Positions 4,938 through 32,896 of a DNA stretch of 64,000 nucleotides are shown here, in pieces. The notes beneath the pieces were generated by a model. It was not told the origin of the DNA. It worked only from the letters and a program-made list of their open reading frames with translations, and searched no databases. Numbering within the stretch: the first letter of the stretch is position 1; each line of letters starts with the position of its first letter. Source of the stretch: Pseudomonadota bacterium (GTDB lineage: Bacteria > Pseudomonadota > Gammaproteobacteria > Steroidobacterales > JBCBZW01); assembly GCA_039193195.1 (NCBI GenBank), contig JBCCWS010000017.1, positions 1 through 64,000 of the forward strand, in the 5' to 3' direction. A program made the position numbers and the translations under genes.

Positions 4938-6134
4938 CTAAGTCCGCCGGCTGTTCACGGTCTCGCCCACCAGCTCATCGAAGCGCTTCATCGCTGTGTC
5001 CCACGTGTGATGGCTGAGGACACGTTTGCGGCCCGCAATCGACAGGGCCTCGTGTCGCTCATCGGACTCGAGCAACAGTCCCACCTGATCGAGGTAGTCC
5101 TCGGGCGTGTCGGCCACCAACAGGTGCTTACCGACCTCGACGTCCACGCCTCGGGCGGCGATGGCGCTACACACCACGGGAACGCCCATGGCCATCGACT
5201 CGAGCAGCTTGTTCTGCGTGCCCCTAGCGATGGTCAGAGGCGCGACGCTTAGGCGCGAGCGGCCAACCCAGGGCCGCACGTCGGGCACGGAGCCGGTCAC
5301 TTCCACGCCCTCCAGGGCGGCGAGCTTGCGCACATCGGCGGTCGGTTCGGCGCCCACGATCGCGAGCTGGAGTTGGGGGTAGCGCTCTTTCAACGCCGGC
5401 CAGACCTCAGCGCAGAAGTTCACCATCGCCTGGATGTTCGGGTAGTAGTCCATGCGCCCGACAAAGCAGATCTGGTGGCGATCGGTCTCCTCCATCGGGC
5501 TGAAGTACTCCGTATCTACACCGTTGACGAACCAGTCCGTGCGCGCACCCGTCTCGAAGCCGTCGAGGGTGGCGGTCTCCTCGGGAGTAGTGCAGGTGCT
5601 GAGTTCGAAGCGCGGGGCCAGGCGGCGTTCTGCGCGCTCCATCTTGCTGCCCTCTAGCCAGTAGCCAAGGTTGCGGGGGAACCTGTGATAGGAGGCGTAG
5701 GCAAGCCACTTCTGCGAATCCATGTCTGCGAAGTCGAGGATCTTCGGCACATCGTCGATGTCTGCCACGTAGTGCGCTACCGAGGAGCAGTGCACGATGA
5801 TCAGATCCGGTCGTGGTTCGCCGCTCAGCTCCTCGCGCAGCAGCCTATGCAGCGTTGGGGAGTAGAAAAAACCCATGGAGGAAGGGACGGGCGTTGGCAG
5901 CCGGCTCAGCATGCGGACCACGGCGGGCACCTTGCTCACCTGCGCGGTGATCATCCGGCTGCAATAGGTCTCCATGCCCGCGCCCGCCTCTCGCTCTTCG
6001 TCTGATCGGTAGATCGTGGCGAGCACCACCTCATGCCCCTGCTCGTGGAGATGGCGGATCATGTGGAAGGAGCGGATCTTGGCGCCGCTTGCCGGTGGGT
6101 ATGGGAAGCGATGGCAGATGTAGAGAATTTTCAT
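4938..6134 (-). CDS. Glycosyltransferase, XrtA/PEP-CTERM-associated type (TIGR03087-like)
   Basis: The product is 398 residues, a GT-B fold family 4 enzyme. The N-terminus (MKILYICHRFPYPPASGAK, then RSFHMIRHLHEQGHEV) is characteristic of the sugar transferase found with exosortase A loci. The C-terminal half has NGVDTEYFSPM, the loop ICFVGRMDYYPN and the donor-site segment GTQNKLLESMAMGVPVV with the conserved E-x7-E spacing. It should add a sugar to the lipid-linked repeat unit at the inner face of the cytoplasmic membrane. The GNAT gene upstream on the same strand ends only 14 bases before its start, so the two are probably co-transcribed. It is convergent with the TonB receptor. The donor and acceptor are not predictable. 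Confidence 0.88.
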   Translation of the reverse strand: MKILYICHRFPYPPASGAKIRSFHMIRHLHEQGHEVVLATIYRSDEEREAGAGMETYCSRMITAQVSKVPAVVRMLSRLPTPVPSSMGFFYSPTLHRLLREELSGEPRPDLIIVHCSSVAHYVADIDDVPKILDFADMDSQKWLAYASYHRFPRNLGYWLEGSKMERAERRLAPRFELSTCTTPEETATLDGFETGARTDWFVNGVDTEYFSPMEETDRHQICFVGRMDYYPNIQAMVNFCAEVWPALKERYPQLQLAIVGAEPTADVRKLAALEGVEVTGSVPDVRPWVGRSRLSVAPLTIARGTQNKLLESMAMGVPVVCSAIAARGVDVEVGKHLLVADTPEDYLDQVGLLLESDERHEALSIAGRKRVLSHHTWDTAMKRFDELVGETVNSRRT

Positions 6135-6148
6135 AATTACCTATCAGT

Positions 6149-7045
6149 TCAGGTAGGTAAATTCATGGATGGCATGTTGGCTGAGGAGAAAGACACATGA
6201 AGGTAGGGGGCTTTCGATGAAAACATCATCTGCATCCCAAAGACGGTAAGGAAAATGGCGCTACCAAGCGCCTTTGCGCCCATACGCTCGTGGGAACGGA
6301 TCGAGGGAGTGTTGAAGGCGGAGACACGGCTCACACTCCACTCATAGCCTCGCTCGCGCAGATACTCGTTGGCTGCGTCCCACAGGCAGACGAATCCAAG
6401 CCCCAGCCGGCGTTCGGGAATCACGTATACGTCGTAGTCCCACGCTGCCTTGTCGCCAGGCGTGGGCACGAAGCGACAGCGAACCTCGTCCTCTACGTAG
6501 GCGCCAAAGTGCAGCCAGATGTAGCCTAGGAATTGCCCTTCGTGGTCAGCGGCAAGGCAATGCGATCCCTCTCTCCAGCGAGTCTCGAGCACAGTGGCGC
6601 AGCGCGGGAACTGCTCGACGAGCGGGTCGTCCGGCAGGGCGCTGCGGATCGGGGCGAAACGTGCTCTGCGCTTTTGCGCTTTAGGGTCCTGCGGTGGAAC
6701 GGCTTGGGCGAAGAACAGGTATCGGCGCAGCGATATGTGCCCACCCGTGGTGCCTTTGGCCAGACGCGCGAACAGATAGAGGCAACCGTTGAAAGCGCCG
6801 AAACGCGAGAATGTGGAGGTGAGTCGACGCAATAGTCTGCCGAGGGTGCGGAGAACGGGCGAGGGTGCTGACGGGGCCAGGCGCAGTGTAGCACTGCTCT
6901 TGAAATAGGGAGCGGTAGCCAGCGTGTGGTTCGACGCTGAGGTCCGTCGACCAATGCCGCTCGGATCGTACTCGTGCACTTGTGCGTCCTCGATCGTGTC
7001 GCTATGCTCCGACGCCCTCGGAGCGTCACTAACTTGGGCCTTCAC
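6149..7045 (-). CDS. GNAT-family acyltransferase
   Basis: The product is 298 residues if translation starts at the GTG at 7045; there is no good ribosome site, so the true start may lie downstream. Residues about 135-270 look like a GNAT domain: HEGQFLGYIWLHFGAY, then DYDVYVIPERRLGLGFVCLWD (acetyl-CoA loop R-x-x-G-x-G with deviations) and VSRVSAFNTPSIRSHERMGAK, the typical late-GNAT asparagine/serine segment. The first 60 residues are low in complexity and may be mis-started. Next to an XrtA glycosyltransferase, it may acylate an amino sugar of the polysaccharide repeat, but this is inference. It is divergent from the glycosyltransferase at 7122. Confidence 0.72.
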   Translation of the reverse strand: MKAQVSDAPRASEHSDTIEDAQVHEYDPSGIGRRTSASNHTLATAPYFKSSATLRLAPSAPSPVLRTLGRLLRRLTSTFSRFGAFNGCLYLFARLAKGTTGGHISLRRYLFFAQAVPPQDPKAQKRRARFAPIRSALPDDPLVEQFPRCATVLETRWREGSHCLAADHEGQFLGYIWLHFGAYVEDEVRCRFVPTPGDKAAWDYDVYVIPERRLGLGFVCLWDAANEYLRERGYEWSVSRVSAFNTPSIRSHERMGAKALGSAIFLTVFGMQMMFSSKAPYLHVSFSSANMPSMNLPT

Positions 7046-7121
7046 AGTCGAGCAAGCGATCCCCCCGCAACATCTTCGTTGAAAGCCCCTGACCGCAGCA
7101 CGCTAGGGCCTGATCTGCCGC

Positions 7122-8270
7122 ATGAGAATCCTCTACCATCACCGGGTGGCCTCCAAGGACGGCCAGTTTGTGCACATAGACGAGCTCACTCGGGCCCTTC
7201 GCGAGCGGGGCCACGAGCTGATTATCGTGGGGCCGAACTTTAACGCGCAGAGCGACTTCGGGACCGACGGTGGCTTCGTCGACTGGCTAAAGCGCCACTT
7301 GCCCAAGGCGCTTTACGAATTCGCGGAGCTGAGCTACAGCCTCGTCGCCTACCGTAAGCTTGCTCGCGCCGTGCGCGAACACCAACCAGACTGCCTCTAC
7401 GAGCGCTACAGCCTATTTCTTCCCGCTGGTATTTGGATACGGCGTCGGTATCGTTTGCCGATGCTCCTTGAGATCAATGCACCTCTTCGCGAAGAGCGGG
7501 CAAAGCACAGTGGCGGATTGGCCCTTCAGGGGCTGGCGCGCTGGAGTGAGCGCTACTGCTGGCGCCACGCTGATCGCACCTTGCCGGTGACCCAGGTACT
7601 TGCGGACATGGTGGTTAACGAAGGCGTCAGCGCGGAGCGCATTACTGTCGTCCCCAACGGCATCGATTGGGACAAGTTCGCTCACGTCCCTGGTCGAGAG
7701 CAGGCCAAGCGGGCTCTGGGCCTCGAAGGTCGCCTAGTCCTCGGTTTCACCGGGTTCGTCCGCGAATGGCACGGCCTCGACCGCGCAGTCGATCTGGTGT
7801 CGCGCTCACCAGAGCGACACCTGCTTGTGGTGGGCGATGGACCGGCCCGCGCGCAGATCGAGGCGCGTGCTCAAGAGCTCGAGGTGAGCGATCGCGTCAC
7901 CGTCACCGGGGTGGTGGCGCGGCAGGATGTGGCGGGGTTCGTCGGGGCCTTCGATGTGGCCTTACAGCCCGATGTCGTTGCCTACGCATCGCCACTAAAA
8001 CTCTTCGAGTACTTGGCGATGGGTTGCGCCGTGGTAGCGCCAAACACTTCGAACATCCGCGAGGTGCTCGTCCATGGCGATACGGGCTGGTTGTTCGACC
8101 CCGCGAAGCCAGACGACTTGCTGAATGCTGTGGAGACGCTTTGTGAGCAGCCGACACTACGCCAACGCCTGGGCGAGCGGGCGCGCGAGTGCATCGATGA
8201 GCGCGGGTTCACTTGGGCGCGAAACGCCGAGGTCGTGGAAGGGGTGTTTCGAGAGTTGGGGGTGAGTTGA
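7122..8270 (+). CDS. Glycosyltransferase family 4
   Basis: The product is 382 residues with a GT-B architecture. The N-terminal acceptor domain begins MRILYHHRVASKDGQFVHID and the C-terminal nucleotide-sugar domain has ITVVPNGIDWDKF, LVLGFTGFVREWHGLD, HLLVVGDGPARAQIE and the donor motif SPLKLFEYLAMGCAVVAPN with the E-x7-E type spacing. It probably extends the exopolysaccharide repeat in the cytoplasm. It stands 76 bases from the divergent GNAT gene and 193 bases before the beta-propeller gene at 8464. The specificity is not predictable. Confidence 0.9.
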   Translation: MRILYHHRVASKDGQFVHIDELTRALRERGHELIIVGPNFNAQSDFGTDGGFVDWLKRHLPKALYEFAELSYSLVAYRKLARAVREHQPDCLYERYSLFLPAGIWIRRRYRLPMLLEINAPLREERAKHSGGLALQGLARWSERYCWRHADRTLPVTQVLADMVVNEGVSAERITVVPNGIDWDKFAHVPGREQAKRALGLEGRLVLGFTGFVREWHGLDRAVDLVSRSPERHLLVVGDGPARAQIEARAQELEVSDRVTVTGVVARQDVAGFVGAFDVALQPDVVAYASPLKLFEYLAMGCAVVAPNTSNIREVLVHGDTGWLFDPAKPDDLLNAVETLCEQPTLRQRLGERARECIDERGFTWARNAEVVEGVFRELGVS

Positions 8271-9618: not shown

Positions 9619-9624
9619 GCGCCC

Positions 9625-10567: not shown

Positions 10568-12007
10568 TCAGTCGGTCACAGCGTACTCGACTCCGAACAA
10601 CTCAAATACAGCGGCAGTGGTGCCCCTCGCGGCTAGCGTTGGCACGTCCGAGACGTCGTGGATGCTGCGGAACTCGCGCAGCAACCGGCCATCCGCCAAG
10701 CGGATCTCAAAGGCGAGCCCATAGGAGGTAAACGTCGCGATCACGCGCGTCCTGTCCTTCGAAATCGATAGGTGTCCAACGGCCTTTTGAAACAGCTTTC
10801 GATGCCGGTCGAGGTGAGCTGCCGTTGGAAACACGGTTCGCTCGCTGCCGGTGGCGAGGTCAAGCTCCAAGACTCGCGAAGGACCACCGTCCCAGTTGCC
10901 CCCCTTGTTGTCGAACAGCAGATAGCGTGGCCCAGTGAGGTGCTGCACGCTGTGCTGCTGGCTGAAGCTACCTCTGATGACTCTCTTGATGCGGCCGTTG
11001 TTTGAATCAACGATTGCGAACGCACTCAAGTTACGCAGTGAGAGCACCCAATCGCCTGTCGTGATGTCCTCGACGGTTGGGTCAGTGTCTCGCACCACAT
11101 CGATGAAATTCAGGTGCAGGGGATCGCAGGGATCGGTGGTTTGCTCCAACAAGCCCCGAAAGGGGGATTGCTCCAGCGCGGTCAAGATAGAGATCTCCTC
11201 GAGCACGTCACCCGCCGGATTCATCACTTGAACCGTGTCGTCGTAGGTTTTCGCGCTGCAGGGAAGCATGTACGAGTCCCTCGCGTGCCAGGCGAGTTCC
11301 ACCGGAGTAGTTCTTACTCGGGCGGCGGGGATAAGCAGGTGATCTCCAACGCTGGGTGAGGGCCAGTGATGGCTGTAATCGAAGCGGTACCATCGAGGCT
11401 GACCGTCCGGCGCGATGCGGGCAACGCCGGTACCAAAGGGAAAGACCTGCGCGTCTTTGGTCCTGGCGAAGATCACTAGCAGGTCGCGTCCTGGGAGGAG
11501 CTTGGCGCTTACCGGGCGCATGTCTTGCGCGGGGTCGAACTGGAGGAACTCGTGCGGATGCTCGGTTGCTGAATTCGCTGCGAAGATCTCCTCCGGCCTG
11601 TAGGGATAAGCGTGCAGAACCTCTCCGGTGCCAGCCATGTGTACGGCGGCGCATCCTTGCTCCGGGCACAGCTCACGATACTGGTTGAGCCCGCCGAAAA
11701 AGAGGTAGGAGTCGTCCGGCGACGCGCTTGGGTCGGACTCGATACGCAGTTGAGACAGGTCCGCTACGTCATACTCGGAGAAACGCTGGAAGCTGGGGTG
11801 CTTGCGCTTCTCAAGCAGTGAAGCGAGCGAGCTTAGGGTATTGCGCGCGTCCCGGATGTGCTTGTACGGAAACACTTCCTCAGCACCGACGTAAACCCCA
11901 AGGAGGAACCCCAGGATAACCGGCGAGAGCATGAAGCCAACGAGGGGAAGGTGTTTGCCGATACCGGCTCCGGACGGCTTCTCGCGATTTCCATCTTGCG
12001 TGGTCAC
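10568..12007 (-). CDS. Arylsulfotransferase (ASST)-like membrane-anchored protein
   Basis: The product is 479 residues with one N-terminal membrane anchor (about residues 20-42, LVGFMLSPVILGFLLGVY) and a large extracytoplasmic domain. It resembles the bacterial arylsulfotransferase beta-propeller family: HLNFIDVV after a DPCDP segment, GDWVLSLRNLSAFAIVD, SFSQQHSVQHL, YLLFDNKGG and SRVLELDLATG. These keep the order of the histidine- and arginine-bearing blades of ASST, an enzyme that moves sulfate between phenolic donors and acceptors without PAPS. Whether all catalytic residues are present cannot be judged without alignment; a non-catalytic propeller is the alternative. It follows the GtrA-like gene on the same strand, with a 164-base gap. 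Three PAPS-type sulfotransferases are in the same island. Confidence 0.72.
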   Translation of the reverse strand: MTTQDGNREKPSGAGIGKHLPLVGFMLSPVILGFLLGVYVGAEEVFPYKHIRDARNTLSSLASLLEKRKHPSFQRFSEYDVADLSQLRIESDPSASPDDSYLFFGGLNQYRELCPEQGCAAVHMAGTGEVLHAYPYRPEEIFAANSATEHPHEFLQFDPAQDMRPVSAKLLPGRDLLVIFARTKDAQVFPFGTGVARIAPDGQPRWYRFDYSHHWPSPSVGDHLLIPAARVRTTPVELAWHARDSYMLPCSAKTYDDTVQVMNPAGDVLEEISILTALEQSPFRGLLEQTTDPCDPLHLNFIDVVRDTDPTVEDITTGDWVLSLRNLSAFAIVDSNNGRIKRVIRGSFSQQHSVQHLTGPRYLLFDNKGGNWDGGPSRVLELDLATGSERTVFPTAAHLDRHRKLFQKAVGHLSISKDRTRVIATFTSYGLAFEIRLADGRLLREFRSIHDVSDVPTLAARGTTAAVFELFGVEYAVTD

Positions 12008-12594: not shown

Positions 12595-12600
12595 CTGGCC

Positions 12601-13650
12601 CTACGTGTTCCGGTCTGGATCCGAGCCAGCGTCATCCTCTACACCCCATCGCTCGCGCACAAGGTAGAGCGGCCTGCCCTTGACCTCGATGAATACTCGC
12701 GAGAGGTACTCACCTATTACGCCCATTCCGGTGAGAACCAAGCCGTTGAAGAACAGCGATACGGTGATCAATGACGCGTACCCTGGGACGTCCGCGCCGA
12801 GCAGTAGGGTCTTGATTACGATGTAAATCATGTACAGCAGTGCGAAGCCGGCGCATACGATTCCGAGGTAGCTCCACAGCTTCAACGGCAACGTGCTAAA
12901 GGAGACGATACCGTCGAGCGCGAAGTTCCAAAGTGGCCAGAATCGCCACTTTGTGGTGCCAGCGACGCGCGTGGGTCGAGTGTAGTAGACGGTCGTGTGG
13001 CGATAACCTACCCACGACAGGATGCCCTTCATGAAACGCGTGCGTTCTGGGAGTTGTCGCACGGCCTCGACGACGGCACGTGACATGAGGCGAAAGTCCC
13101 CCACATTCTCGGGGATCGGCGTATCGCTGATGCGGCCGATTGTGCGGTAGAACATTCGCGCGCTCCAGCGCTTCAGCGCGGAGTCACTGGCGCGATCTTT
13201 ACGTGCGGCTAGAACGACGTCGTAGCCCTCCCGCCACCTTTGCACCATCTCGGTGATGACCTCTGGTGGATCCTGCAGATCCGCATCGATCGGTATCACC
13301 GCTCGCCCTCGCGCATGGTTGATCCCCGCTGTCAAGGCGATGTCCTTACCGAAGTTTCGAGTAAGGTCAACTATTTTAATAGCAGGGTTGGCCTGTCTAG
13401 CCGCAACCAGCATTGCGAGGGTTGTGTCACTGCTACCGTCGTTCACGCAGACGATCTCGTAGCTAGAGGAGAGCTCCTCGACGATGGGAACGACGCGCTC
13501 AAGGAAGGGCGGGATAGCCTGCTCTTCGTTGAACATCGGGGCAACGAGGCTGATTTCGATACCTGCAGCCGGGTCTTCGATCAGATTGGCGCGGCGGGCC
13601 TCAAGTGCAGTCATGAGAGATATCCTGATTTTCCAACGGCCAGACGACAC
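12601..13650 (-). CDS. Family 2 glycosyltransferase, GtrB/polyprenyl-phosphate sugar synthase type
   Basis: The product is 349 residues. The GT-A domain shows ISLVAPMFNEEQAIPPFLERV, VCVNDGSSDTTLAML, IDLTRNFGK-like IVDLTRNFGKDIALTAG, the metal site IDADLQDPPEV and the acceptor segment NVGDFRLMSRAVV, followed by two C-terminal membrane helices (LWSYLGIVCAGFALLYMIYI and SLITVSLFFNGLVLTGMGVIGEY with residues between). It should make a polyprenyl-phosphate-linked hexose on the cytoplasmic face for the GtrA-like flippase and the GT-C-like protein next door. The GTG start at 13650 follows AAGGAG by 10 bases; the ATG at 13614 with AGGA is an alternative. Confidence 0.9.
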   Translation of the reverse strand: MSSGRWKIRISLMTALEARRANLIEDPAAGIEISLVAPMFNEEQAIPPFLERVVPIVEELSSSYEIVCVNDGSSDTTLAMLVAARQANPAIKIVDLTRNFGKDIALTAGINHARGRAVIPIDADLQDPPEVITEMVQRWREGYDVVLAARKDRASDSALKRWSARMFYRTIGRISDTPIPENVGDFRLMSRAVVEAVRQLPERTRFMKGILSWVGYRHTTVYYTRPTRVAGTTKWRFWPLWNFALDGIVSFSTLPLKLWSYLGIVCAGFALLYMIYIVIKTLLLGADVPGYASLITVSLFFNGLVLTGMGVIGEYLSRVFIEVKGRPLYLVRERWGVEDDAGSDPDRNT

Positions 13651-13666: not shown

Positions 13667-16084
13667 CTATTGCGTGCCGGGCGGGGTGCGCTGTCGTGCC
13701 TGCAGTAGCGACACGCCCAGTCCGCCGGACAGCAAGACCAGGACGAAGGTCGAGACGCCTAGGGATCCAAGCTGCACGCGGCTCCAACCGTAGCGTAGCT
13801 CCAGGTTGTTCACTCCCGGTCGAGCAGGTACGACCGCGAAGTTGAGGGCGCTGGCAACGGCGGTGATCGGGACGCCGTCGCGTGACACCGTGAGTGTAGG
13901 GTGCCAAACGTGAGGCAAGCGTACGTAGCCTGCGTTTGAGGCCACGAACTCAATCTCCGCCCAGGTCTGGTGAACCTGGTGCTTGGAGACGGTTATGCTG
14001 GTGTCTGCATCAGTTGGCGGTGGGGCGAGCGCGGCGTCGGGTGCGTGACGTACGACGAGCTGTGAGGCGATACCGCGCTCCCGGTCGAGGGCCATCCGCT
14101 CGAGCAGCTCGTCCAGATACTCGTCCACGCGTATCGTCGCGTCACTCGCCGCGGCAAAGTCCTCATTCCAAAACGCGGGCTTATCCAGAGCTGAGGGATC
14201 TTGTACCGCGAGCTGGGGTGCGTAGGTCACCGCTGGTGCGGGGCCGACATCGATGTACGCGCCGAGCGTGGGGTGCTCAGCGTTGCTGACTACCGATGCT
14301 GGCAATCCCATCTGCCTTCCCGTGTCGTTCACGATCGTATGCACGTTCAACAGGGCCAGGAGAGTGCGGGTGTCCTCCGCTAAGGCACCGGTACTGCGCA
14401 GGTCGTGCTCGACGCGCTTTATCACCGCGCCGATGTAGTTGTGGGCGCGTGAGGCCGCGAGGTTGTGTGCACCCGTTAGCTGCTCGCTACGGTAGTAGGA
14501 GAGTATCCCCGCGCCGGGGCCGATCGAGGCGAAGAGTTCTCCGGATCCGCCCCACGTGCGTGTCTGCAAGACGCGACCGAGTGAGGGCGTGGCTTCGAGA
14601 TGGCGTCCCGCATCGTCCAGGTAGGACTTATCGGTGCGGTTGTACGGTTGCAGTGCGGTGCTGCAGAGGTCCAGCACCACCAGCAGCGTAACCCCGGCGA
14701 GCAGTGGCGAACGCACGCCGAGCGTCCTTCGCAGGTGGTCTGCGGCGATGCCTACGAGGAACGCGTAGCCGAATAGAGTCGCCACCATGAATTTCACATG
14801 ATGGCCGCGATCCGTGAGGGCGAAGGCGGTGCACAGCACGAGGCTGACGAGCAACCAGGTGCGCCCGTTACCCGCACTTGCGCGCGTAAAGGTCGCCACC
14901 ACGGCGGCCCCCATGACTAGCAGGCCCGTTGCGCCCAGATAGCTGAGATGACCTGATGGCACTGGATTCCACAGCAAAAGCGCCTTCCACACGTCGGCGG
15001 AAGGTAGCGCCCAGCTGAACAAGTGAACGTCTTCGTACAGCATGACGGCCTCGCGCTCCAACAGAACGGGAACGATGGACACGAGCGCCAGGGCGATGCT
15101 CGCTACGGCGGAGGTGCTGAGCGGCACGATAACGCGCCAGCGCGCCGGGTGTGACGCCAGATAGACAAGCGAGTGCAAGATCATCAAAGACCCGAAGGCC
15201 TTAGCCATGGATTGGTGATGAACCAACAACAGGCCGTTTAGCAGCGTGAGTGAAAACCAAGTGATCGGGCGATACCGGTCCTGGGTCAGCAGCTGGGTAA
15301 GGAGGGTGAAGGTGAGGGGCATCAACAGGTAAGTGATGGCTTGCGGATGGTTGCCATCCATCAGCACCTGGTGAAGGTGGGACAGGGAGCCTGCGAACAC
15401 CAGCGCGCCTAGGCAGGCCCCGAAGCGCCCTAGGGCGTGTTGGCGTAGGCACCAATAGAAGCATGCCCCGCTCGCAATGTGGGATATGAACAGAATCAGC
15501 TTCGTGGTCAGATTGGGGGCTCGCAGCAGCCAGTCGATCGCGCCGCCGAACACGAAATAGAAGGGGCCCGTGAACTCGAGAAAGCTAGACCCTGCGTAGG
15601 AATAGTTATTCCAAAGGGCGAACTCGCCGTCCGTCAGCGCATCGCGAAAATGCGCGATGCGCGCCACGTGGGACGAGTAGTCGCCGCCCACCAAGGCGCC
15701 AGGAGTGATCAATGAGTGGGCGAACCAGGTGAACAGGCCCAGCATGAGCAGTTTCAGGCCAGCGGGCGAGAGGCATTGCAGTGTGCGTGAGAGCTGACGC
15801 CCCCGAACTTCCCCAATGAGGATCAGAAGTGCCAGCGTGGTCGAGCTCGCCAGCAAGACGTAGTCGAGGACGTTGAACGAGCCCAGCAGCGCCCAAGGCA
15901 GCGAAGACAAATCACCGCCTGCGCGCGAATGCTCCAGATACACATACTTGAGTGGATCGACGGTGAACCAGGAGAGCAAGCAGAGTGAGAACACCGTGCC
16001 GACGAGCTGCAGTAGCACGTTGCTGCTGGCGCCGAGGACGTTAGCGTCGTCGACCGTTGATCGATCGAGGAGTGTCTGTAGCAT
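13667..16084 (-). CDS. Large GT-C-like integral membrane protein
   Basis: The product is 805 residues. Around twelve hydrophobic segments fill the first 450 residues (for example LLQLVGTVFSLCLLSWFTV, YVLLASSTTLALLILIG, LLMLGLFTWFAHSLI), then a soluble extracytoplasmic domain of about 300 residues and a last membrane helix (LGSLGVSTFVLVLLSGGLGV). The first loop has GALVGGDYSSHVARIAHF, the usual GT-C position for acidic catalytic residues. This resembles the YfhO-like and 6-pyruvoyl-tetrahydropterin-synthase-related membrane protein families. It probably transfers a sugar from a polyprenyl-phosphate donor outside the membrane. It is followed at 16 bases by the GT2 gene and then GtrA, forming a donor-flippase-transferase set. 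Confidence 0.75.
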   Translation of the reverse strand: MLQTLLDRSTVDDANVLGASSNVLLQLVGTVFSLCLLSWFTVDPLKYVYLEHSRAGGDLSSLPWALLGSFNVLDYVLLASSTTLALLILIGEVRGRQLSRTLQCLSPAGLKLLMLGLFTWFAHSLITPGALVGGDYSSHVARIAHFRDALTDGEFALWNNYSYAGSSFLEFTGPFYFVFGGAIDWLLRAPNLTTKLILFISHIASGACFYWCLRQHALGRFGACLGALVFAGSLSHLHQVLMDGNHPQAITYLLMPLTFTLLTQLLTQDRYRPITWFSLTLLNGLLLVHHQSMAKAFGSLMILHSLVYLASHPARWRVIVPLSTSAVASIALALVSIVPVLLEREAVMLYEDVHLFSWALPSADVWKALLLWNPVPSGHLSYLGATGLLVMGAAVVATFTRASAGNGRTWLLVSLVLCTAFALTDRGHHVKFMVATLFGYAFLVGIAADHLRRTLGVRSPLLAGVTLLVVLDLCSTALQPYNRTDKSYLDDAGRHLEATPSLGRVLQTRTWGGSGELFASIGPGAGILSYYRSEQLTGAHNLAASRAHNYIGAVIKRVEHDLRSTGALAEDTRTLLALLNVHTIVNDTGRQMGLPASVVSNAEHPTLGAYIDVGPAPAVTYAPQLAVQDPSALDKPAFWNEDFAAASDATIRVDEYLDELLERMALDRERGIASQLVVRHAPDAALAPPPTDADTSITVSKHQVHQTWAEIEFVASNAGYVRLPHVWHPTLTVSRDGVPITAVASALNFAVVPARPGVNNLELRYGWSRVQLGSLGVSTFVLVLLSGGLGVSLLQARQRTPPGTQ

Positions 16085-21471: not shown

Positions 21472-21773
21472 GGCAGCTGATCGATTAGTTGGCTTGTCGT
21501 CGACATGCTTGCTCTTCCGTGACGCTGCGAAGCGTCGGCCCCAGCGGCTGCCCGGCGGTGGCTTCGAGCCGGGCGCGAGAGTTGTTCGCAGCGGGCGCCA
21601 CTTGGACGTACGGGGCGCGGAGTCACCGGCTGCAGTGCGGGGATGCTGGCATACGTAAAGTGTGGGAAGCAAGGCACAGGTTCGCAAGATGGCTGGTGGT
21701 ATGATCCGGCCCTTTCGGACGGTCCGCCTACCACGCCAGGCGGGTAACCGCCAGTTTTGCATGCGAGGAGCTA

Positions 21774-22712
21774 ATGGAGCCGAGCGGGAAGGAGTTGGCG
21801 TTCGTCGTGGGCCACTACAAGGCGGGCAGCACCTGGCTGCTCAGGTTGCTGTGTCTTCATCCTCAGATCCGCGGCCTGGCGGAGACACACATTTTTCACC
21901 ACGTTCAGCGCTCACCCGACCTTGACGCGTGTTCTGAGATTCTGTTCGAAGGGGGAGTCCCCTGGAGCGCCGGTGGCCAACGGCGCTGGGTCATGCATCG
22001 CGTGGAGCGTCTAGGTGCGTGGCTGTTGCGACCCCACGCGCGCATCCCGGGGCGCGATAGGCCTTCGACGCTACTGGACATGGGGTACCTCGCGGGGCTC
22101 GGGTTGCGCCGAGAACTTGCCCGTGCAGATGAGGCTGCCGCTTACGTGCGCACCTTCTTCGCGCACGTCCACGGCCGTCTTAAGCCCCCTGCTTACCTCT
22201 TGGAGAAGACGCCGCGAAACATCCGCTATGTGCCGTTTATCCGAGAGATCTTCCCGCAAGCCAAGCTGCTCGCTATGTACCGAGACGGGCGCGATGTCTG
22301 TGTGTCAGACCGCTTCTTCCGCGCACGGCGCGGAGAGGATTGGTCCCTGGAAGCCAGTGCTCAACGTTGGCACGATGACATGGTGGCTCAGGGTCATTAC
22401 GGACGCGACTACGGGCTATATGCGATCTCCTACGAGTCTCTGCATGAGGATCCGCAGCCGGTGGTGACCGGGGTGTTGGAGTTTCTTGGCCTCGATGCGG
22501 AGCGAGCGTTGGTAAAACGACTCGTGGAACGTGCGTCGTTCGAGTCCACTACCGGTCGGAAGCGCGGCGCAGAGCAGCGCAAGAGCTTCAACAGAAAGGG
22601 TGTGGTGGGAGACTGGCACAATCACTTTAGTGACGGTGATCGAGAGACTTTCAAGCGTGTAGCAAACGCCTCGCTGCTCAGTCTCGGCTATGAAGAGGAT
22701 CCTGACTGGTAG
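21774..22712 (+). CDS. PAPS-dependent sulfotransferase (second of three)
   Basis: The product is 312 residues. The 5'-phosphosulfate loop is VVGHYKAGSTWLLRLLCLHP (about residues 10-29) and the 3'-phosphate site is LLAMYRDGRDVCVSDRFF (about 163-180). EKTPRNIRYVPFI and a late FNRKGVVGDWHNHF segment are also typical of the family. The ATG at 21774 follows gcgaggagcta, a strong ribosome site. Sequence outside the motifs differs strongly from the other two sulfotransferases, so it likely has its own acceptor. It precedes the beta-helix gene on the same strand by 56 bases. Confidence 0.9.
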   Translation: MEPSGKELAFVVGHYKAGSTWLLRLLCLHPQIRGLAETHIFHHVQRSPDLDACSEILFEGGVPWSAGGQRRWVMHRVERLGAWLLRPHARIPGRDRPSTLLDMGYLAGLGLRRELARADEAAAYVRTFFAHVHGRLKPPAYLLEKTPRNIRYVPFIREIFPQAKLLAMYRDGRDVCVSDRFFRARRGEDWSLEASAQRWHDDMVAQGHYGRDYGLYAISYESLHEDPQPVVTGVLEFLGLDAERALVKRLVERASFESTTGRKRGAEQRKSFNRKGVVGDWHNHFSDGDRETFKRVANASLLSLGYEEDPDW

Positions 22713-22768
22713 GTCGGCGTCGGGACCTCACGATTCGCGTGGGATGTGGTGCAAGGGAGCGATTGATC

Positions 22769-23986
22769 ATGTCTTGGTTGGCTAGAGCATTGCTCGTCGT
22801 CGCGATTTTCGGTTGCGGGGTACTTGTGGGCGCCTCTGGTCGACCGTCTCCCGCAGCTCTTTGGTCTGACGCCGCGGTGCCCATGCTACTCGCCTCCGCG
22901 CCGCCGCCGATGGAGCCAGCGCCAACTCCAAGCCTTTCCGGCGTCGTCGAGGTGGAGACCGTCGATTTCTCGCCGCAGATCGCAATCCCCGACTTCTCGA
23001 CCGATAAGGGGCGTGTTTGGCGCGTGTGCGAGGGATGTGAGCACACCTCGCTCTCGCAGGCCTTGGCCACGGCGCAAGACGGCGACACGATCCGCCTAGC
23101 TCCTGGTCTTTACACGGACTGCGTAAAGGTCATCAAGAAGAGCATCGCGATCGTTGGGGAGATCGGCGAGGACGGGACTCGGGCAACCTTCAACCGCGCC
23201 TGTGCGGGGAAGGCGGCGTTCAATCTCGCCGGTGCCTTCGCCCGCCTCGAAGGCATTCAGGTGCAGGACATTGCCGTGGCGGATCGCAACGGAGCCTGCG
23301 TGCGCTTACAGCCACGCGGCGAGGCGAGCCTGGTTGTGCACTTGCGCAACATCATTTGTGTTCGAAGCGAGAACGGCGTGCTGGGAGGGGCCGGGCCGAG
23401 CGGCGCCTTGATCGTCGAGTCCTCACTCTTCGTTGGCAATGGCAAGGAAGGCCGGGCCCACGGCATCTATATGGGGAACGGACGTGAGTTCGTCTTTCGC
23501 GACAGCGTCGTCCACTCCACAAAGGACGGTGGCCACAGCCTGAAGATCGGTGCGCAGCGCGCGCTGATCGTCTCTTCCATCGTGGCTGCGCTGGACGGTG
23601 ACAACTCGCGTGCGATCGACTTCTTCGGCGGCGGTGTCCTGTACGTCAACGATAGCGTGTTGCAGCAGGGGCCTCGCTCCGACAACCACGATATGATCGG
23701 GTTGTTGAACGAGGTGCGGCGTATGAACCGGGGAGTACCACACGCCGTTTACGTGCGCGACAGCTGGCTCATCTATGACGATGAGAATCGTTGCTGCCGC
23801 TGGCTGCTTTCCGGTCGTAAGTCCGGTGATATCCTCTTCGAGGGCAACCGGATGGTGGCGATAAACGGCAGCCGGCTGACTGGGTACGAAACTCGTGACA
23901 ACAAGCGGGTCGGCAATAGGGCAGCGGCTGGGTTAGCTGCCTATGACGCCACGCTTGAAGCACTGCCCAAGCCTGCCGCCTGGTAA
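22769..23986 (+). CDS. Membrane-anchored or secreted right-handed beta-helix protein
   Basis: The product is 405 residues from the ATG at 22769 (ribosome site aagggag); an in-frame GTG ten codons earlier is less likely. An N-terminal hydrophobic segment (ALLVVAIFGCGVLVGASG) and a proline-rich linker precede a parallel beta-helix that starts at HTSLSQALATAQDGDTIRLA and runs through repeats such as IAIVGEIGEDGT, ARLEGIQVQDIAV, LIVESSLFVGNGKEGRAHG, FVFRDSVVHSTKDGGHSLK, LYVNDSVLQQG and ILFEGNRMVAING. This fold is shared by alginate C5-epimerases and polysaccharide lyases as well as non-catalytic adhesins. It likely acts on, or holds, the polymer in the periplasm. No catalytic triad can be named. 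Confidence 0.78.
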   Translation: MSWLARALLVVAIFGCGVLVGASGRPSPAALWSDAAVPMLLASAPPPMEPAPTPSLSGVVEVETVDFSPQIAIPDFSTDKGRVWRVCEGCEHTSLSQALATAQDGDTIRLAPGLYTDCVKVIKKSIAIVGEIGEDGTRATFNRACAGKAAFNLAGAFARLEGIQVQDIAVADRNGACVRLQPRGEASLVVHLRNIICVRSENGVLGGAGPSGALIVESSLFVGNGKEGRAHGIYMGNGREFVFRDSVVHSTKDGGHSLKIGAQRALIVSSIVAALDGDNSRAIDFFGGGVLYVNDSVLQQGPRSDNHDMIGLLNEVRRMNRGVPHAVYVRDSWLIYDDENRCCRWLLSGRKSGDILFEGNRMVAINGSRLTGYETRDNKRVGNRAAAGLAAYDATLEALPKPAAW

Positions 23987-24025: not shown

Positions 24026-25045
24026 CTAGCTATCGAGGTAGTGAGCGATAACCTCACTCATCGAGTGGGTTGGACGAGAGCTACGAAATTTATTCAGCAC
24101 GCGCTCGACTGCCCTTCGATCTTCAGGCCGCAGCTCTCGCTTCCACCGCTCGTCCAGCTTGATCTCGCCGCCTCGAAAACGCATGGTGTTGCCGAGCACA
24201 TGATGCTCGCCGGCTTTGAAGTCGCCGTCGAAGGGATGGGGCGTGAGTCCAGCGAACTCGTGGATGCGGCGCAGCTCGGCGTCTGTGTCCTCGCACAGCG
24301 TCTCGTAGTGGACGAGTAGTGAGTCCGAAGCCTCAGCGGCAATCCGTGCGATGTCCGTTTGCCGGCGAAGCCACTGGCGGGCACTCAGCTCGGCATCCCA
24401 GCCCGCATGGTTCATCATCGACAGGGAGGTTCCGCGGGGGTCGCGCACCAAGTGCAGGCTGCGCAGACTGAGCTGCGGGATGGCTGCCAGGTAACGAAGC
24501 CGGTATGGGTCCTGAGAATTGTCTAGGAAGACCTCCGCCTTGCCCCAGGCTAGAGCCGCCTGCGTAAAGGTGACATTGGCTAGGTTTGTGGTGGCGATGC
24601 GCCGCTTCCAGGCGGGCACCAGGTTCACCAACCGGTCCCTGGCGCCTTCCACGGCGCTTGACTGCATTCTCAGCACGGCGCCGGTTAGTAGGCGGTTTAT
24701 TCGATCGTCGGCGTGTAGGCGGTAGCCTGTGCCGAAGTCTCGGAAGTCGAACGGTAGCTCGTGCTTTGCGAAGGCCTCGGACACGCTGTTGTAGAAAGGG
24801 CACGTCTGCAGCGGTTCCCCGCAGGAGCAGCGAAAATCCTCATCCGCTGCAAACTTCCAGCCGGTCATGTGACCGACCGTGGCGACCCCCGGGTGCGTGT
24901 TCAGAATAAAGGCGGAGAGCGTTGAGCCTGAAAACTGAGAGGAACAAAGGTATAGGAAGGGGAGCACCCGCTTCTCCGCTGGAGCCGTGGCCAAGGCCGC
25001 GATGCTTGCATACGCTGTGGTTGTAGGCAAGGGACGGGTAGCCAT
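24026..25045 (-). CDS. PAPS-dependent sulfotransferase-like protein (third of three)
   Basis: The product is 339 residues. The P-loop-like region is LYLCSSQFSGSTLSAFILNTH (about residues 31-51), the 3'-phosphate site is LHLVRDPRGTSLSMMNHAGW, and LVHYETLCEDTDAELRRIHEFAG is the typical late helix. CSCGEPLQTCPFYNSV carries a cysteine cluster that is seen in a subset of these enzymes. It should sulfate a cytosolic or membrane-associated glycan acceptor. It is divergent from the Wzx-like flippase (119-base gap) and convergent with the beta-helix gene (39-base gap). Confidence 0.87.
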   Translation of the reverse strand: MATRPLPTTTAYASIAALATAPAEKRVLPFLYLCSSQFSGSTLSAFILNTHPGVATVGHMTGWKFAADEDFRCSCGEPLQTCPFYNSVSEAFAKHELPFDFRDFGTGYRLHADDRINRLLTGAVLRMQSSAVEGARDRLVNLVPAWKRRIATTNLANVTFTQAALAWGKAEVFLDNSQDPYRLRYLAAIPQLSLRSLHLVRDPRGTSLSMMNHAGWDAELSARQWLRRQTDIARIAAEASDSLLVHYETLCEDTDAELRRIHEFAGLTPHPFDGDFKAGEHHVLGNTMRFRGGEIKLDERWKRELRPEDRRAVERVLNKFRSSRPTHSMSEVIAHYLDS

Positions 25046-25164: not shown

Positions 25165-26622
25165 ATGAGCGAATCGAAGCAGCAGAACGTCGGCGCGAAG
25201 GTCGTTAGTGGCTTCCGCTGGCTGGCTCTAGGGCGTCTGGCTAGCCAGGCTGGCACTTGGGTAGTCACCCTAGTAGTCATTCGGCTCCTGGCACCAGAAG
25301 ACTACGGCCTCATGGCCATGGCGACGATGGTCATTGGCTTCTTTGCCCTGTTCGAGGAGTTCGGCATGGGGGCCGCTCTGACACAGCGCTCCGAGCTGGA
25401 AGAGGGTGTCGCGGGCAAGGTGTTCGGTGTGGTGATCACGACCAACGCTTGCGCGGCGCTGGTGCTGTTGGCAATTGCCGCTCCGGTCGCGCGGTTCTTT
25501 GAAGAGCCGCGGTTGGTAGACATCATTCATGTGTTAACTCTGAGGTTTCCGCTTCTCGCCCTGATTTCCGTCCCCCAAGCTATGTTGGCGAGGCGGATGC
25601 AATTCAAGCGTAAGGCGACCGTGGAGTTTCTGGCGATGATCACGGGGAGTCTGGTCTCGCTAGGGCTAGCGCTTTCCGGCGCAGGAGTGTGGGCGCTCGT
25701 CTGGGGATCGGTCGGTGCCACAATCGTGAGGGCGACTGGCATGAACCTGGCCGTCCGCTTCTTCGAGATGCCTCGTTTCAGCTTGCGAGGGATGCGTGAG
25801 GTGGTGACCTTTGGTGGTCAGCTCACTGTCAACCGCATTCTCTGGTACTTCTACGCGCAGGCGGATGTGTTCGTCATCGGTCGCCTGCTCGGGAAGGAAG
25901 TTCTCGGCGTCTACGCGGTGGCCATGCAGCTCGCGAAGCTCCCGATGCAGAAGCTCGGCGCGATCGTGAATGAAGTTGGCTTCGCAGGGTTCTCGCGCTT
26001 GCAGTCAGACCGGGAGGAGATTGCTAGGCAGTTCGTACGCGCCGCCTCGCTGATTAGCGTCTTCGCGTTTCCCGTGTTCTTCGGAATCTCTTCTGTGGCG
26101 CCGGAGCTGGTGCTGGTAGTGTTGGGGCCGGGTTGGACGGATGCCATCCTGCCGTTGCAGCTGTTGAGTTTGGTTTGCCCAATCCGCATGCTCAACCAGG
26201 TATTGAATTCAGCTCTCCTCGGTGTGGGGCGAGCGGATCTGTGCCTTCGCAACACCGTGGTACTCGCCGTCGTACTGCCCCTAGGATTTGTGTTCGGTGC
26301 TCGTTACGGGCTGGCCGGCGTGTGCTGGGTCTGGTTGCTCGGCTTTAGTCTCTGCTTCGGGGTGATCTTGCTGTGGTCTCTGCCGGTGCTCGGGGTAGCC
26401 GTCATGCGCTACCTTGGCGCAACCATGGGCGTCGGACTTAGCGCGACCGCTATGTGGGGCAGCGTCACCCTCGCACGCGAGGGCGCTGAAGCCGCTGGCT
26501 TCAATGCGGGGTTAATGCTGCTCCTTGCACTCGTCGTCACGGGCGCGGCGGCATTTGCGCTGCTGGCGTTCACGCTGCACAGGAGTTCTGTCGACCTCGT
26601 GCTGCGTCTTGTTCGTCGCTAG
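25165..26622 (+). CDS. Wzx-like oligosaccharide flippase (polysaccharide biosynthesis/MOP family)
   Basis: The product is 485 residues with about 14 hydrophobic helices over the whole length. The start GAKVVSGFRWLALGRLASQAG and the segment RLLAPEDYGLMAMATMVIGF are standard for the Wzx/RfbX group, as is LGVYAVAMQLAKLPMQKLG midway. It should flip the undecaprenyl-diphosphate-linked repeat unit to the periplasm for the Wzy-like protein at 20125. The ribosome site is weak. It is convergent with the Ig/FnIII lipoprotein gene, ending 9 bases away. A terminal basic end (LVLRLVRR) is cytoplasmic. Confidence 0.9.
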   Translation: MSESKQQNVGAKVVSGFRWLALGRLASQAGTWVVTLVVIRLLAPEDYGLMAMATMVIGFFALFEEFGMGAALTQRSELEEGVAGKVFGVVITTNACAALVLLAIAAPVARFFEEPRLVDIIHVLTLRFPLLALISVPQAMLARRMQFKRKATVEFLAMITGSLVSLGLALSGAGVWALVWGSVGATIVRATGMNLAVRFFEMPRFSLRGMREVVTFGGQLTVNRILWYFYAQADVFVIGRLLGKEVLGVYAVAMQLAKLPMQKLGAIVNEVGFAGFSRLQSDREEIARQFVRAASLISVFAFPVFFGISSVAPELVLVVLGPGWTDAILPLQLLSLVCPIRMLNQVLNSALLGVGRADLCLRNTVVLAVVLPLGFVFGARYGLAGVCWVWLLGFSLCFGVILLWSLPVLGVAVMRYLGATMGVGLSATAMWGSVTLAREGAEAAGFNAGLMLLLALVVTGAAAFALLAFTLHRSSVDLVLRLVRR

Positions 26623-26631
26623 CTCGAAGGC

Positions 26632-30443: not shown

Positions 30444-30548
30444 TCGGGTTGGTTCTAGTGCGTGCCTGAAGGGTGGGGCTGATTCCTCGCATCCCGTGCC
30501 ACTTGCTGGCATGATCGCCCGCATTTCGATCGTCGCCCGGGGGTCCTG

Positions 30549-31670
30549 ATGACTGCGCTTGTTCACCTGATCGCCGGTGCACGCCCTAACTTCATGAAGA
30601 TTGCGCCTATCGTCCGGGCGTTCCAATCACGCCCGAGCGATTTCCAGTTCCAGATCATCCATACGGGGCAACACTACGATCGCCAGATGAGCGACGTCTT
30701 CTTCGAAGAGTTGGGCATTCCGCATCCCGATCAGCACCTCGACGCTGGCGGCGGGTCTCACGCCGAGCAGACGGCCAAGATCATGACCGCCTACGAACAG
30801 GTGGTAGCGGCAGAACGGCCGGACTGTACCACGGTCGTGGGCGATGTGAACTCAACGGTTGCCTGTTCCCTAGTAGCAACCAAGATGCACATCCCAGTAG
30901 CCCACGTAGAGGCGGGCTTGCGCAGCGGCGATCGCCGCATGCCGGAGGAGATCAATCGGCTGGTGACCGATGCGATCAGCGATATCTTTTTCACCACTGA
31001 GCGCGCAGGGTTGGAGAATCTTCTCGCCGAGGGCAAACCCATATCGGCCGTGCACTTCGTCGGTCACGTCATGGTGGATAATCTGCTTTACCAGCTCAGC
31101 CGGCTAAACGACCTTCATGAAGATAGCCTTGAGGGCCGGGAGCTCAAGTCGCAGCTCGGTCGGTACGGTGTGGTAACCATGCACCGACCGTCGAACGTTG
31201 ACGATCCCCGGGTTCTGTCAGGGATAATCGATGCCCTCACACGTATCGCGGACGACTTGCCCCTGGTGTTCCCCGTGCACCCGCGCACGCGAAAGAACAT
31301 GGATGCTGCGGGGATCACCGTGCCTTCCAGCATAAGCTTGATCGGGCCGTTGTCTTATATGGCGTTCCTAAACATGTGGAAGGACGCTTCCTTGGTGCTC
31401 ACCGATAGCGGCGGTTTGCAAGAGGAGACCACGGCGTTGGGGGTCCCTTGCCTGACGATGCGCGAGAACACTGAGAGACCGGTGACCGTTAGCGAAGGGA
31501 CCAATCAGCTCGTCGGCACGGACCCCGTCACCATCGAGCGTGCCGCACGCGAGATTCTCGCGGGAGCTGTGCCCGCAGGGCGCAGACCTGAACTGTGGGA
31601 TGGTAGCGCTGCCGTCAGGATCGTTGACGAGCTCGCCCGATTCCTTGGCGGCGGCAGCGCTGCAGACTAG
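30549..31670 (+). CDS. wecB: UDP-N-acetylglucosamine 2-epimerase, non-hydrolysing
   Basis: The product is 373 residues, normal for the family. It shows the N-terminal GARPNFMKIAPIVRAF, HTGQHYDRQMSDVFF, the central GDVNSTVACSLVATKM and HVEAGLRSGDRRMPEEINR with catalytic acidic residues, MHRPSNVDD, VFPVHPRTRKNM and LTDSGGLQEETTALGVPCLT. It interconverts UDP-GlcNAc and UDP-ManNAc in the cytosol, so ManNAc or a derived sugar is likely in the surface polymer. No UDP-ManNAc dehydrogenase is in the window. The stop codon overlaps the convergent glycosyltransferase stop by four bases. Confidence 0.95.
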   Translation: MTALVHLIAGARPNFMKIAPIVRAFQSRPSDFQFQIIHTGQHYDRQMSDVFFEELGIPHPDQHLDAGGGSHAEQTAKIMTAYEQVVAAERPDCTTVVGDVNSTVACSLVATKMHIPVAHVEAGLRSGDRRMPEEINRLVTDAISDIFFTTERAGLENLLAEGKPISAVHFVGHVMVDNLLYQLSRLNDLHEDSLEGRELKSQLGRYGVVTMHRPSNVDDPRVLSGIIDALTRIADDLPLVFPVHPRTRKNMDAAGITVPSSISLIGPLSYMAFLNMWKDASLVLTDSGGLQEETTALGVPCLTMRENTERPVTVSEGTNQLVGTDPVTIERAAREILAGAVPAGRRPELWDGSAAVRIVDELARFLGGGSAAD

Positions 31671-32896
31671 GTGATTGAGTCGAGCAGTTCGGCAAGGCGA
31701 CCGGTTAGGGCACGTCGCGAGTAGCGCTCCACCTTCCGCGGATCGGCCGCTTTCGCCAGCCCGCTTTGCAGCTGTCTGATCATCTGAGGTAATAGGTCGA
31801 TGATTGGGGCGGTCGCACTAAGCGGCGTGACCCAGGGCAACCCGAGCGATTGCAGCAGCTTGCCCGTGTCTCCTGCGGGGTCGGTGAGTGCGAGTATCGG
31901 TTGACCAGTTCGAAGGTACTCATAGAGTTTGGCGGGGATTTGCTCGTTGCACGTCTCGCTCTGCAGCACCAACAGCGCGTCCACGGACATCATCTCGGCA
32001 AGCGCCTCCTCGTACGTCACCCTCGGCAATATCTCGACAAAGTCCTCCACGCCGTGGTGACTTGCAACGCTGCGCACGAACGACTCTCGAACCGGAGCGC
32101 GAAAGCGAATCGTCAGCTTTGCTGGGGTGAGTTCCCCGCGCTGACGTAGGGTGGAAATCGCCTCGAACAACGCGCTCGGGTTGCGCTCTTGCTCGTAGAC
32201 CATGCCACTGTGCAAGAGCACCATCGCCCGCCCGTCCCGGTCTGGTGGGCAGCGACTTAGGCCGTCGAAGGCGCCTTCGTCGTAGCCGTTCTCGATAAGC
32301 TCGAAGCGATCTACAGGAGTGTGTGCATAGCGTTCGCGGTACATGGCTACCGCTGAGGGTGCCACGAACACTAACTTGTCCGCTTGGGCGACCGCTAGCT
32401 GCTCGGTGTCGACGAACGCTCGGTGTTGGCGCGGGTCCGATGGGTACCCGTCTTGGGCCATCGGATCGCGGAAGTCGGCTATCCACGGCACCTGTAGCTT
32501 GTGTGCCATGTAGTGGCCTACATGGTGCGCAGTGGCGATTGGGTAGGTGCTCCAGACAGCGTGTGGCCGGGCCTTGCGCAGCTCAGTCAGGGCGAAGCGC
32601 GCAAACCAGCGCCACGACGTCCATCGGTCCGGCAGCGCTAGGTGACCCGGGTAGCGCCCACCAAGGGATAGGTGCCGCGCCGTATCCAGGCACCCCGTTC
32701 GGATCACCTGACACTGCGCCGGCAACAGCTTCTCGGTCTCAACATCGACGTTACGGTGTATGCCACGCCAGGGGGTGAGCACCACTGGGCGCCAGCCGAA
32801 GGCGGGCAAGTGCTGGACGAAGCGAAGCGTTCGCTGCACGCCGCTCGTACCCACGAGAGGGGGAAACTGAAAAGCTGTAAGGACGATCGTCTTCAT
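31667..32896 (-). CDS. Glycosyltransferase, GT-B fold
   Basis: The product is 409 residues. The start MKTIVLTAFQFPPLVGTSGV, then QRTLRFVQHLPAFGW, and segments WSTYPIATAHHVGHYMAH, WIADFRDPMAQDGYP and FELIENGYDEGAF are typical of family 4-like enzymes, with the donor region LVLQSETCNEQIPAKLYEYLRTGQPILALTD split over residues about 285-315. It likely extends the repeat unit. It is convergent with wecB. The region beyond its start holds the tRNA-Val gene. The specificity is not predictable. Confidence 0.85.
   Translation of the reverse strand: MKTIVLTAFQFPPLVGTSGVQRTLRFVQHLPAFGWRPVVLTPWRGIHRNVDVETEKLLPAQCQVIRTGCLDTARHLSLGGRYPGHLALPDRWTSWRWFARFALTELRKARPHAVWSTYPIATAHHVGHYMAHKLQVPWIADFRDPMAQDGYPSDPRQHRAFVDTEQLAVAQADKLVFVAPSAVAMYRERYAHTPVDRFELIENGYDEGAFDGLSRCPPDRDGRAMVLLHSGMVYEQERNPSALFEAISTLRQRGELTPAKLTIRFRAPVRESFVRSVASHHGVEDFVEILPRVTYEEALAEMMSVDALLVLQSETCNEQIPAKLYEYLRTGQPILALTDPAGDTGKLLQSLGLPWVTPLSATAPIIDLLPQMIRQLQSGLAKAADPRKVERYSRRALTGRLAELLDSIT

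Follow-up and report, generated by a model that had tools for sequence, protein, structure and literature searches.

Sulfotransferase genes in the glycan island of a gammaproteobacterial exosortase A locus: a candidate exchangeable sulfation module

Exopolysaccharide loci of the exosortase A (XrtA)/PEP-CTERM type have been described in the floc formers Aquincola and Zoogloea (PMC9850573). Aquincola cannot form flocs without the PEP-CTERM-system genes pepA and prsT and an extensive cluster for exopolysaccharide (PMC9850573). The stretch analysed here, called the window, comprises 64,000 nucleotides from a gammaproteobacterium of the order Steroidobacterales (assembly GCA_039193195.1, contig JBCCWS010000017.1, positions 1 to 64,000). 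Like these loci, it combines prsT and prsK/prsR with an extensive set of polysaccharide genes. To these it adds three sulfotransferases of the type using 3'-phosphoadenosine 5'-phosphosulfate (PAPS) and a protein resembling arylsulfate sulfotransferase (ASST), whereas words that start with "sulf" occur three times in PMC9850573, in phenol-sulfuric acid where seen. Our analysis suggests, with a probability of roughly 0.6, that the window carries an exchangeable sulfation module in the polymer-specific island of an XrtA system, and that at least one PAPS sulfotransferase sulfates the glycan repeat unit, the presumed acceptor.

Outside these floc formers, the xss cluster of Synechocystis has eight glycosyltransferases and a two-component system, and its polysaccharide, synechan, is described as sulfated (PMC8205485). 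According to the authors of that work, sulfotransferase genes were not known to them from any other exopolysaccharide cluster in bacteria, a statement to which the Vibrio capsule reported in 2024 (PMC11641403) is a later counter-example. No paper describing a link between exosortase/PEP-CTERM and sulfation was found in the open-licence literature under the "sulf-" spelling. Terms of both kinds do occur in PMC8776678, in unrelated passages, and in PMC8205485, where exosortase is not mentioned in the main text.

Sulfotransferases at XrtA ligase loci

The genes that matter most to the argument are the following (coordinates in the window, strand, assignment).

17379..18383, minus: ST1, PAPS-type sulfotransferase (PF13469 83 bits, PF00685 45 bits)
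20125..21762, minus: XrtA-associated O-ligase / Wzy-like polymerase (TIGR03097 476 bits, cut-off 188; PF04932 80 bits)
21774..22712, plus: ST2, PAPS-type sulfotransferase (PF13469 90 bits, PF00685 85 bits)
24026..25045, minus: ST3, divergent PAPS-type sulfotransferase (PF13469 34 bits, cut-off 27)

The original prediction, made from the sequence alone, had named three PAPS-type sulfotransferases of different sequence at 17379, 21774 and 24026. All three were above the PF13469 cut-off, while ST3 was below that of PF00685 (20 bits vs 22). They are indeed different, as ST2 and ST3 showed 21% and 16% identity to ST1 in our alignment. Reading of the translations by eye revealed RSGTT-, KAGST- and SGST-type loops, together with R-x(7)-S in all three, which we take to be the 5'- and 3'-phosphate-binding motifs of PAPS sulfotransferases. 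No N-terminal membrane segment was seen by eye in ST1, ST2 or ST3. Outside the window, the genome encodes an adenosine 5'-phosphosulfate (APS) kinase, which would supply PAPS. About 4 kb separate one APS-kinase match from a sulfotransferase match (G000:C35:11603-16823), which marks a possible separate PAPS/sulfation locus.

The genome is 6.7 Mb in 113 contigs and gave 25 PF13469 matches, some of which are pieces of one gene. Under an even spread, the probability of three or more of them in one 28-kb stretch is 1.6e-4. This assumption fails, for four further PF13469 matches were found within 14 kb on contig C24. Because the spread is uneven, density alone proves little, and we therefore compared the locus with other genomes. 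The neighbours of the four genes on C24 (G000:C24:28001-48000, L160) are PhyH, TauD, 4'-phosphopantetheinyl transferase/polyketide dehydratase and esterase-like genes, and this cluster may belong to a sulfated lipid or polyketide pathway. At least four PF13469 matches with similar spacing were observed on contig C14 of G150, a genome of the same genus.

Our sample comprised 143 genomes of the class, every listed row having a different family code, and 23 of them had TIGR03097 over its cut-off. Apart from the genome studied here, 22 of the class genomes carried the XrtA ligase; 13 of these had a PF13469 match no more than 10 kb away from it, and 10 had one no more than 5 kb away. The number expected from each genome's sulfotransferase number and size was 0.72, and 200,000 random draws never gave as many as 13. 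As a control we used the 40 genomes with only Wzy-type ligases under the TIGR03097 cut-off, of which four (G040, G077, G089 and G137) had a sulfotransferase at a distance of up to 15 kb. This control set includes partial matches and short contigs, and G014 (178 bits) and G104 (176), against the cut-off of 188, may be XrtA-type. The difference between 13/22 and 4/40 gave a Fisher p of 6.6e-5, and with only genomes having any sulfotransferase the comparison was 13/20 vs 4/25 (p = 0.0016), where the 40 controls were read by eye only, at 15 kb, and the 22 ligase genomes were recomputed from positions. In G010, two contigs each carry a part of the ligase, and the count used the half below the cut-off; without G010 the count is 12/22 (p = 2.4e-4). 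An XrtA match was present in 24 of 25 ligase genomes checked, in 22 of them over its own cut-off.

A second set consisted of 80 named loci taken from a scan with the ligase alignment, with flanks of up to 10 kb; these are the best query matches rather than a random sample, and they overlap with the class genomes (L067 and G148 have the same coordinates), so that the two sets are not independent. A sulfotransferase-like gene was identified at 31/80 loci, and at 16/49 of those with full flanks, the flanks being shortened at the remaining 31. Among 45 aligned sulfotransferase-like sequences (42 from the 31 loci and the three of the window), 41 matched PF13469, which puts the confirmed loci at 27-31. 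The sulfotransferase-bearing loci include all five of Nitrosospira, four of Thiobacillus, and loci of a member of the Gallionellaceae, Pelagibius, Rhodothalassium and Desulfacinum. A sulfotransferase at XrtA ligase loci is thus common but optional. The comparative search for co-occurrence put forward with the original prediction supports the link in both sets (13/22 class genomes, 31/80 named loci).

The same counts do not bear out the claim that sulfotransferases are rare at exosortase A loci. Several sulfotransferases near the ligase were found in G122, with six inside 15 kb, in G061, with three, and in G064, G081 and G088, with two apiece, and with these five genomes the idea that several such genes make the locus unusual was rejected. 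The locus of G122 (L153) has more sulfotransferases near its XrtA ligase than the window.

The ST1 subfamily is linked to the XrtA ligase. Relatives of ST1 above 140 bits were found at 7/80 loci by phmmer, and relatives above 150 bits in 6/22 class genomes with the ligase vs 1/120 without it (p = 4.6e-5). Of these six, those of G055, G061 and G010 are on the ligase contig within 10 kb, and two are on other contigs. In our tree, ST1 grouped with seven sequences from ligase loci, whose sources include Alpha-, Beta- and Gammaproteobacteria (SH-aLRT [Shimodaira–Hasegawa-like approximate likelihood ratio test] 95). Further well-supported clades consist of ligase-locus sequences only, and two of these contain Desulfacinum, while ST2 and ST3 form long, unplaced branches. 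This is a quick tree of 61 rows with long branches flagged; a single genome supplied all of its "elsewhere" rows, and hits that were too long or too short were excluded, including the ST1 relative of L130.

The congener G150 offers a closer comparison. Its glycosyltransferase, wecB and Wzx are 65-78% identical to those of the window, its ligase 45%. A sulfotransferase (PF13469 39 bits) adjoins the ligase and a tetratricopeptide repeat (TPR) gene there, with 24% identity to ST1 over 178 residues, and in the tree it grouped with sulfotransferases of Thiobacillus and Methylococcaceae ligase loci (SH-aLRT 100). No close match of ST1, ST2 or ST3 was found on the G150 ligase contig, which ends 2.7 kb past the ligase. 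In surface-glycan loci, polymer-specific modules swap polymerase and decoration genes between conserved flanks. By this analogy, the replacement of ligase and sulfotransferase between conserved flanks indicates that the sulfotransferase is most likely part of the polymer-specific module.

The glycan island and the XrtA core

The other genes of the island, which extends between stp1 and stp2, and the XrtA core are listed below.

4938..6134, minus: stp1, XrtA-system glycosyltransferase of family 4 (GT4) (TIGR03087 437 bits, cut-off 317)
6149..7045, minus: GNAT-family acetyl/acyltransferase (PF00583 30 bits; relatives at 10/80 other ligase loci by phmmer)
7122..8270, plus: GT4 glycosyltransferase (PF00534 88 bits)
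10568..12007, minus: ASST-like protein, membrane-anchored, putative periplasmic PAPS-independent sulfotransferase (PF14269 39 bits, cut-off 27)
12601..13650, minus: family 2 (GT2) glycosyltransferase, polyprenyl-phosphate type, PgfS-like (PF00535 110 bits; NF047588 271 bits, under its cut-off of 500)
13667..16084, minus: multi-spanning membrane protein, possibly GT-C-like (PF10131 23 bits, under its cut-off of 26.4)
16385..17170, plus: TPR protein (TPR families; relatives at 15/80 ligase loci; adjoins the ligase in G150)
18755..20110, plus: protein without family match, probably secreted (hydrophobic N-terminal stretch seen by eye)
22739..23986, plus: weak beta-helix similarity (TIGR03805 25 bits, under its cut-off of 141.5; relatives at 4/80 loci)
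25165..26622, plus: Wzx-like flippase (PF13440 250 bits)
30549..31670, plus: wecB, UDP-GlcNAc 2-epimerase (TIGR00236 309 bits)
31667..32896, minus: GT4-like glycosyltransferase (PF13692 23.5 bits, under its cut-off of 27; 75% identity in G150)
33484..34641, plus: stp2, XrtA-system GT4 glycosyltransferase (TIGR03088 493 bits, cut-off 409)
44414..63832, plus: XrtA core, 13 NCBIfam PEP-CTERM/XrtA models, 12 over cut-off

Pfam and NCBIfam confirmed that the sulfotransferases and the ASST-like protein stand among glycosyltransferases, a Wzy-like O-ligase and a Wzx-like flippase, as had been read from the sequence. The interval is the accessory, variable, polymer-specific glycan part of an XrtA/PEP-CTERM exopolysaccharide system. 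The system-specific models over cut-off were TIGR03087, TIGR03088, TIGR03097, TIGR02916, TIGR02915, TIGR02917, TIGR03027 and TIGR03007.

Exosortase A lies at 60231-61823 with 330 bits for TIGR03109 against a cut-off of 208, which identifies an XrtA system; the same protein bears an EpsI-type C-terminal domain (TIGR02914 43.3 bits vs 42.8). The core further encodes an EpsB-type initiating transferase, PrsK, PrsR, PrsT, an export protein, a chain-length protein, a tyrosine kinase, an outer-membrane protein, an ATPase slightly below its cut-off (TIGR03015, 309 vs 324.5), a deacetylase, a FemAB-like protein and an amidotransferase. The linkage to an exosortase A locus held, but the core starts 11.5 kb past the interval of the original prediction (4938-32896), beyond gltX, pgi, glgX and a major facilitator superfamily gene (34.7-42.4 kb) and one unassigned gene. 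A crude pattern search of the window for PEP-CTERM C-termini gave one unconvincing match only.

Other observations concern single genes. The GNAT-family protein matched no NCBIfam model and has a counterpart near the ligase in G150. For the TPR protein, no XrtA model exceeded its cut-off. The 18755 protein had no Pfam match up to E = 1, no NCBIfam match and no phmmer relative at the 80 loci. At these loci phmmer also found no relative of the ASST-like protein, ST3 or the 13667 protein, and one weak relative for 8464. Two proteins with putative immunoglobulin (Ig) domains and a fibronectin type III domain are encoded in divergent orientation inside the island (26632-28830 and 29442-30443), and an Ig-domain gene also lies between Wzx and the ligase in G150. 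A tRNA-Val gene (33244-33318) stands where the glycan island borders on stp2. In G150, methyltransferase genes separate the matching stretch from the shared glycosyltransferase, and the variable region may thus have one of its boundaries at the tRNA.

The description of the 10568 protein as a membrane-anchored ASST-like protein was upheld by its PF14269 match, an N-terminal hydrophobic stretch seen by eye, and the kept ASST histidine column. HxN, QH, FDN and R were invariant in an alignment of this protein and four relatives, and H352 was invariant in the five sequences. A profile alignment placed QH at residues 435-436 of PDB 3elq (counted along the printed alignment), of which His436 is presumably the catalytic histidine of Escherichia coli ASST. 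The family profile matched 3elq only weakly (E = 0.0034), and in a PDB sequence search with the 10568 protein alone, 3elq, 9kf4 and 9kf6 were not recovered. AlphaFold single-sequence models were too poor to use (mean pLDDT, the predicted local distance difference test, of 41 for the ASST-like protein and 43 for the 18755 protein).

The ASST-like protein as a recurrent XrtA-locus gene was rejected, for PF14269 was found in 7/36 ligase genomes and on the ligase contig only in the window, a count from draft genomes in which further copies near ligases could be hidden. PF13469 lay within 15 kb of at least five of the 12 PF14269 matches in the seven ligase genomes. Another PF14269 copy of the genome studied here adjoins a flippase and is about 7 kb from an alginate-lyase-like gene. 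These neighbours fit a role in polysaccharide loci. From its sequence, the protein would act in the periplasm, where it may add or move sulfate without PAPS.

Proposed mechanism and rival explanations

One or more of the three PAPS sulfotransferases, with ST1 as the best candidate, would act in the cytoplasm and sulfate the lipid-linked repeat unit during its assembly by the glycosyltransferases. Wzx (25165) would then flip this unit, and the XrtA-associated Wzy-like ligase (20125) would polymerise it or move it onto an acceptor. The XrtA core (44-64 kb) would serve chain length, export and regulation, and the anchored ASST-like protein might contribute a periplasmic sulfation step. Since no N-terminal membrane segment was seen in ST1-3 and the genome has an APS kinase, the simplest view is that sulfate is added in the cytoplasm and that flipping follows. 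We infer the acceptor, the order of the steps, the number of sulfated positions, and the role and donor of the ASST-like protein from the gene content and its comparison.

The original prediction had proposed that the exopolymer, or a glycan on PEP-CTERM proteins, is sulfated at several positions, and had regarded several sulfotransferases as unusual for such loci. The link between the sulfotransferases and the XrtA glycan gained support from the co-location and from the replacement in G150; the unusualness for XrtA loci did not stand.

Several observations weigh against this link. In 9/22 class genomes the ligase had no sulfotransferase nearby, and in the same order a sulfotransferase near the ligase was found in at least two of 13 other ligase genomes (G150 and G170), a lower bound as several contigs end near the ligase. 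Among the 80 named loci, 49 had no match of our purpose-built sulfotransferase profile in their flanks. Loci of Janthinobacterium, Massilia, Duganella and Nitrosomonas are among those without a sulfotransferase, which indicates that the XrtA system does not need one. By phmmer at these loci ST3 had no relatives, and ST2 only weak ones (two loci). The strong ST1 relative of G122 is far from its ligase. The C24 cluster among the 25 PF13469 matches suggests that sulfotransferases in this genome serve other pathways too. The genes lie on both strands, and no sigma-54-type site tying the sulfotransferases to the core was found in the window: the PrsR-like sigma-54 search with one mismatch gave 2 sites vs 2.27 expected, neither of them near a sulfotransferase. 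The same search with two mismatches (90 sites vs a mean of 69.1, above all 100 shuffles) gave sites spread over the whole window and was rejected as too unspecific.

Some of these points would also suit the sulfotransferases being passengers in an insertion-tolerant region, with other acceptors such as lipids, sterols, secondary metabolites or proteins. In a PDB sequence search ST2 resembled cytosolic and tyrosine sulfotransferases, the four-sulfotransferase cluster of the same genome adjoins lipid- or polyketide-type genes, gene orientation in the island is mixed, and the genes at 8464, 18755 and 22739 are without assignment. Such passengers are, however, hard to square with co-location at 13/22 ligases and with the link of the ST1 subfamily, and we consider this explanation unlikely, though the strongest of the rivals.

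It is somewhat less probable still that the sulfotransferases are not XrtA-specific and belong to the usual decoration genes found at Wzx/Wzy-type loci of any kind. Such enzymes have been described from a Wzx/Wzy cluster of a cyanobacterium (PMC8205485) and from a locus for capsule and O-antigen in Vibrio (PMC11641403), but in the sub-cut-off Wzy-type genomes they were near the ligase in 4/40 (15 kb) against 13/22, in an imperfect control.

That the sulfated glycan is a short one placed on PEP-CTERM proteins by the TIGR03097 O-ligase, the free exopolymer being unsulfated, seems improbable: NCBIfam calls TIGR03097 a putative O-glycosylation ligase and the sulfotransferases track this ligase, but the same XrtA system has a polymer export, chain-length and kinase set, and the window yielded no convincing PEP-CTERM C-terminus in the crude pattern search.

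Sulfation of the exopolymer repeat unit is the reading we prefer. In a wider form of it, XrtA/PEP-CTERM exopolymers would commonly be sulfated across Pseudomonadota and as far as Thermodesulfobacteriota, and this exchangeable trait would depend on a small number of dedicated sulfotransferase subfamilies travelling together with the XrtA ligase. This wider form is put forward tentatively, at slightly worse than even odds.

Comparison with known systems

In work on granular sludge published in 2023, every sample contained sulfated glycoconjugates; the reference sulfotransferases used there gave few hits in relatives of the dominant sludge genera, and the bacterial pathways were stated not to be well known (PMC10483923). 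The recurrent XrtA-locus sulfotransferase gives named candidates, for example those at all five Nitrosospira loci of the 80. By our survey, slime-forming XrtA polymers may often be sulfated. If the wider reading is true, one source of sulfated polymers in flocs and granules would be identified, and the window would add a periplasmic ASST-type step to the PAPS-dependent one.

The xss cluster is like the window in being a Wzx/Wzy-type cluster with unlike sulfotransferases, two in its case, but it is cyanobacterial, and "exosortase" is absent from the main text of PMC8205485. The cluster of Vibrio sp. KMM 8419 likewise has sulfotransferases among polysaccharide genes, and the structure of its sulfated capsule was reported, the individual sulfotransferases being putative (PMC11641403). 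It differs in that it is an ABC (ATP-binding cassette)-transporter capsule with PAPS genes in the cluster, and the main text of PMC11641403 has no "exosortase". In the exopolymer cluster of Gallionella ES-2, a sulfotransferase was taken as a hint of a substituted polymer in a remark on that single genome (PMC3770913), but there it is one enzyme, and "exosortase" does not occur in the main text. In Pontiella, one of three putative sulfotransferases is inside a glycosyltransferase cluster (PMC7356697).

AssT (3elq) and the "Sulfotransferase" entries 9kf4 and 9kf6 share with the 10568 protein the ASST-like profile and the aligned histidine column (3elq 436); the 10568 protein differs from AssT in being membrane-anchored and encoded inside a polysaccharide locus. 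Sulfotransferases in polysaccharide clusters were thus known, and the locus is in itself an ordinary XrtA system; the sulfation module is what it adds, and the frequent recurrence of such modules is the surprise.

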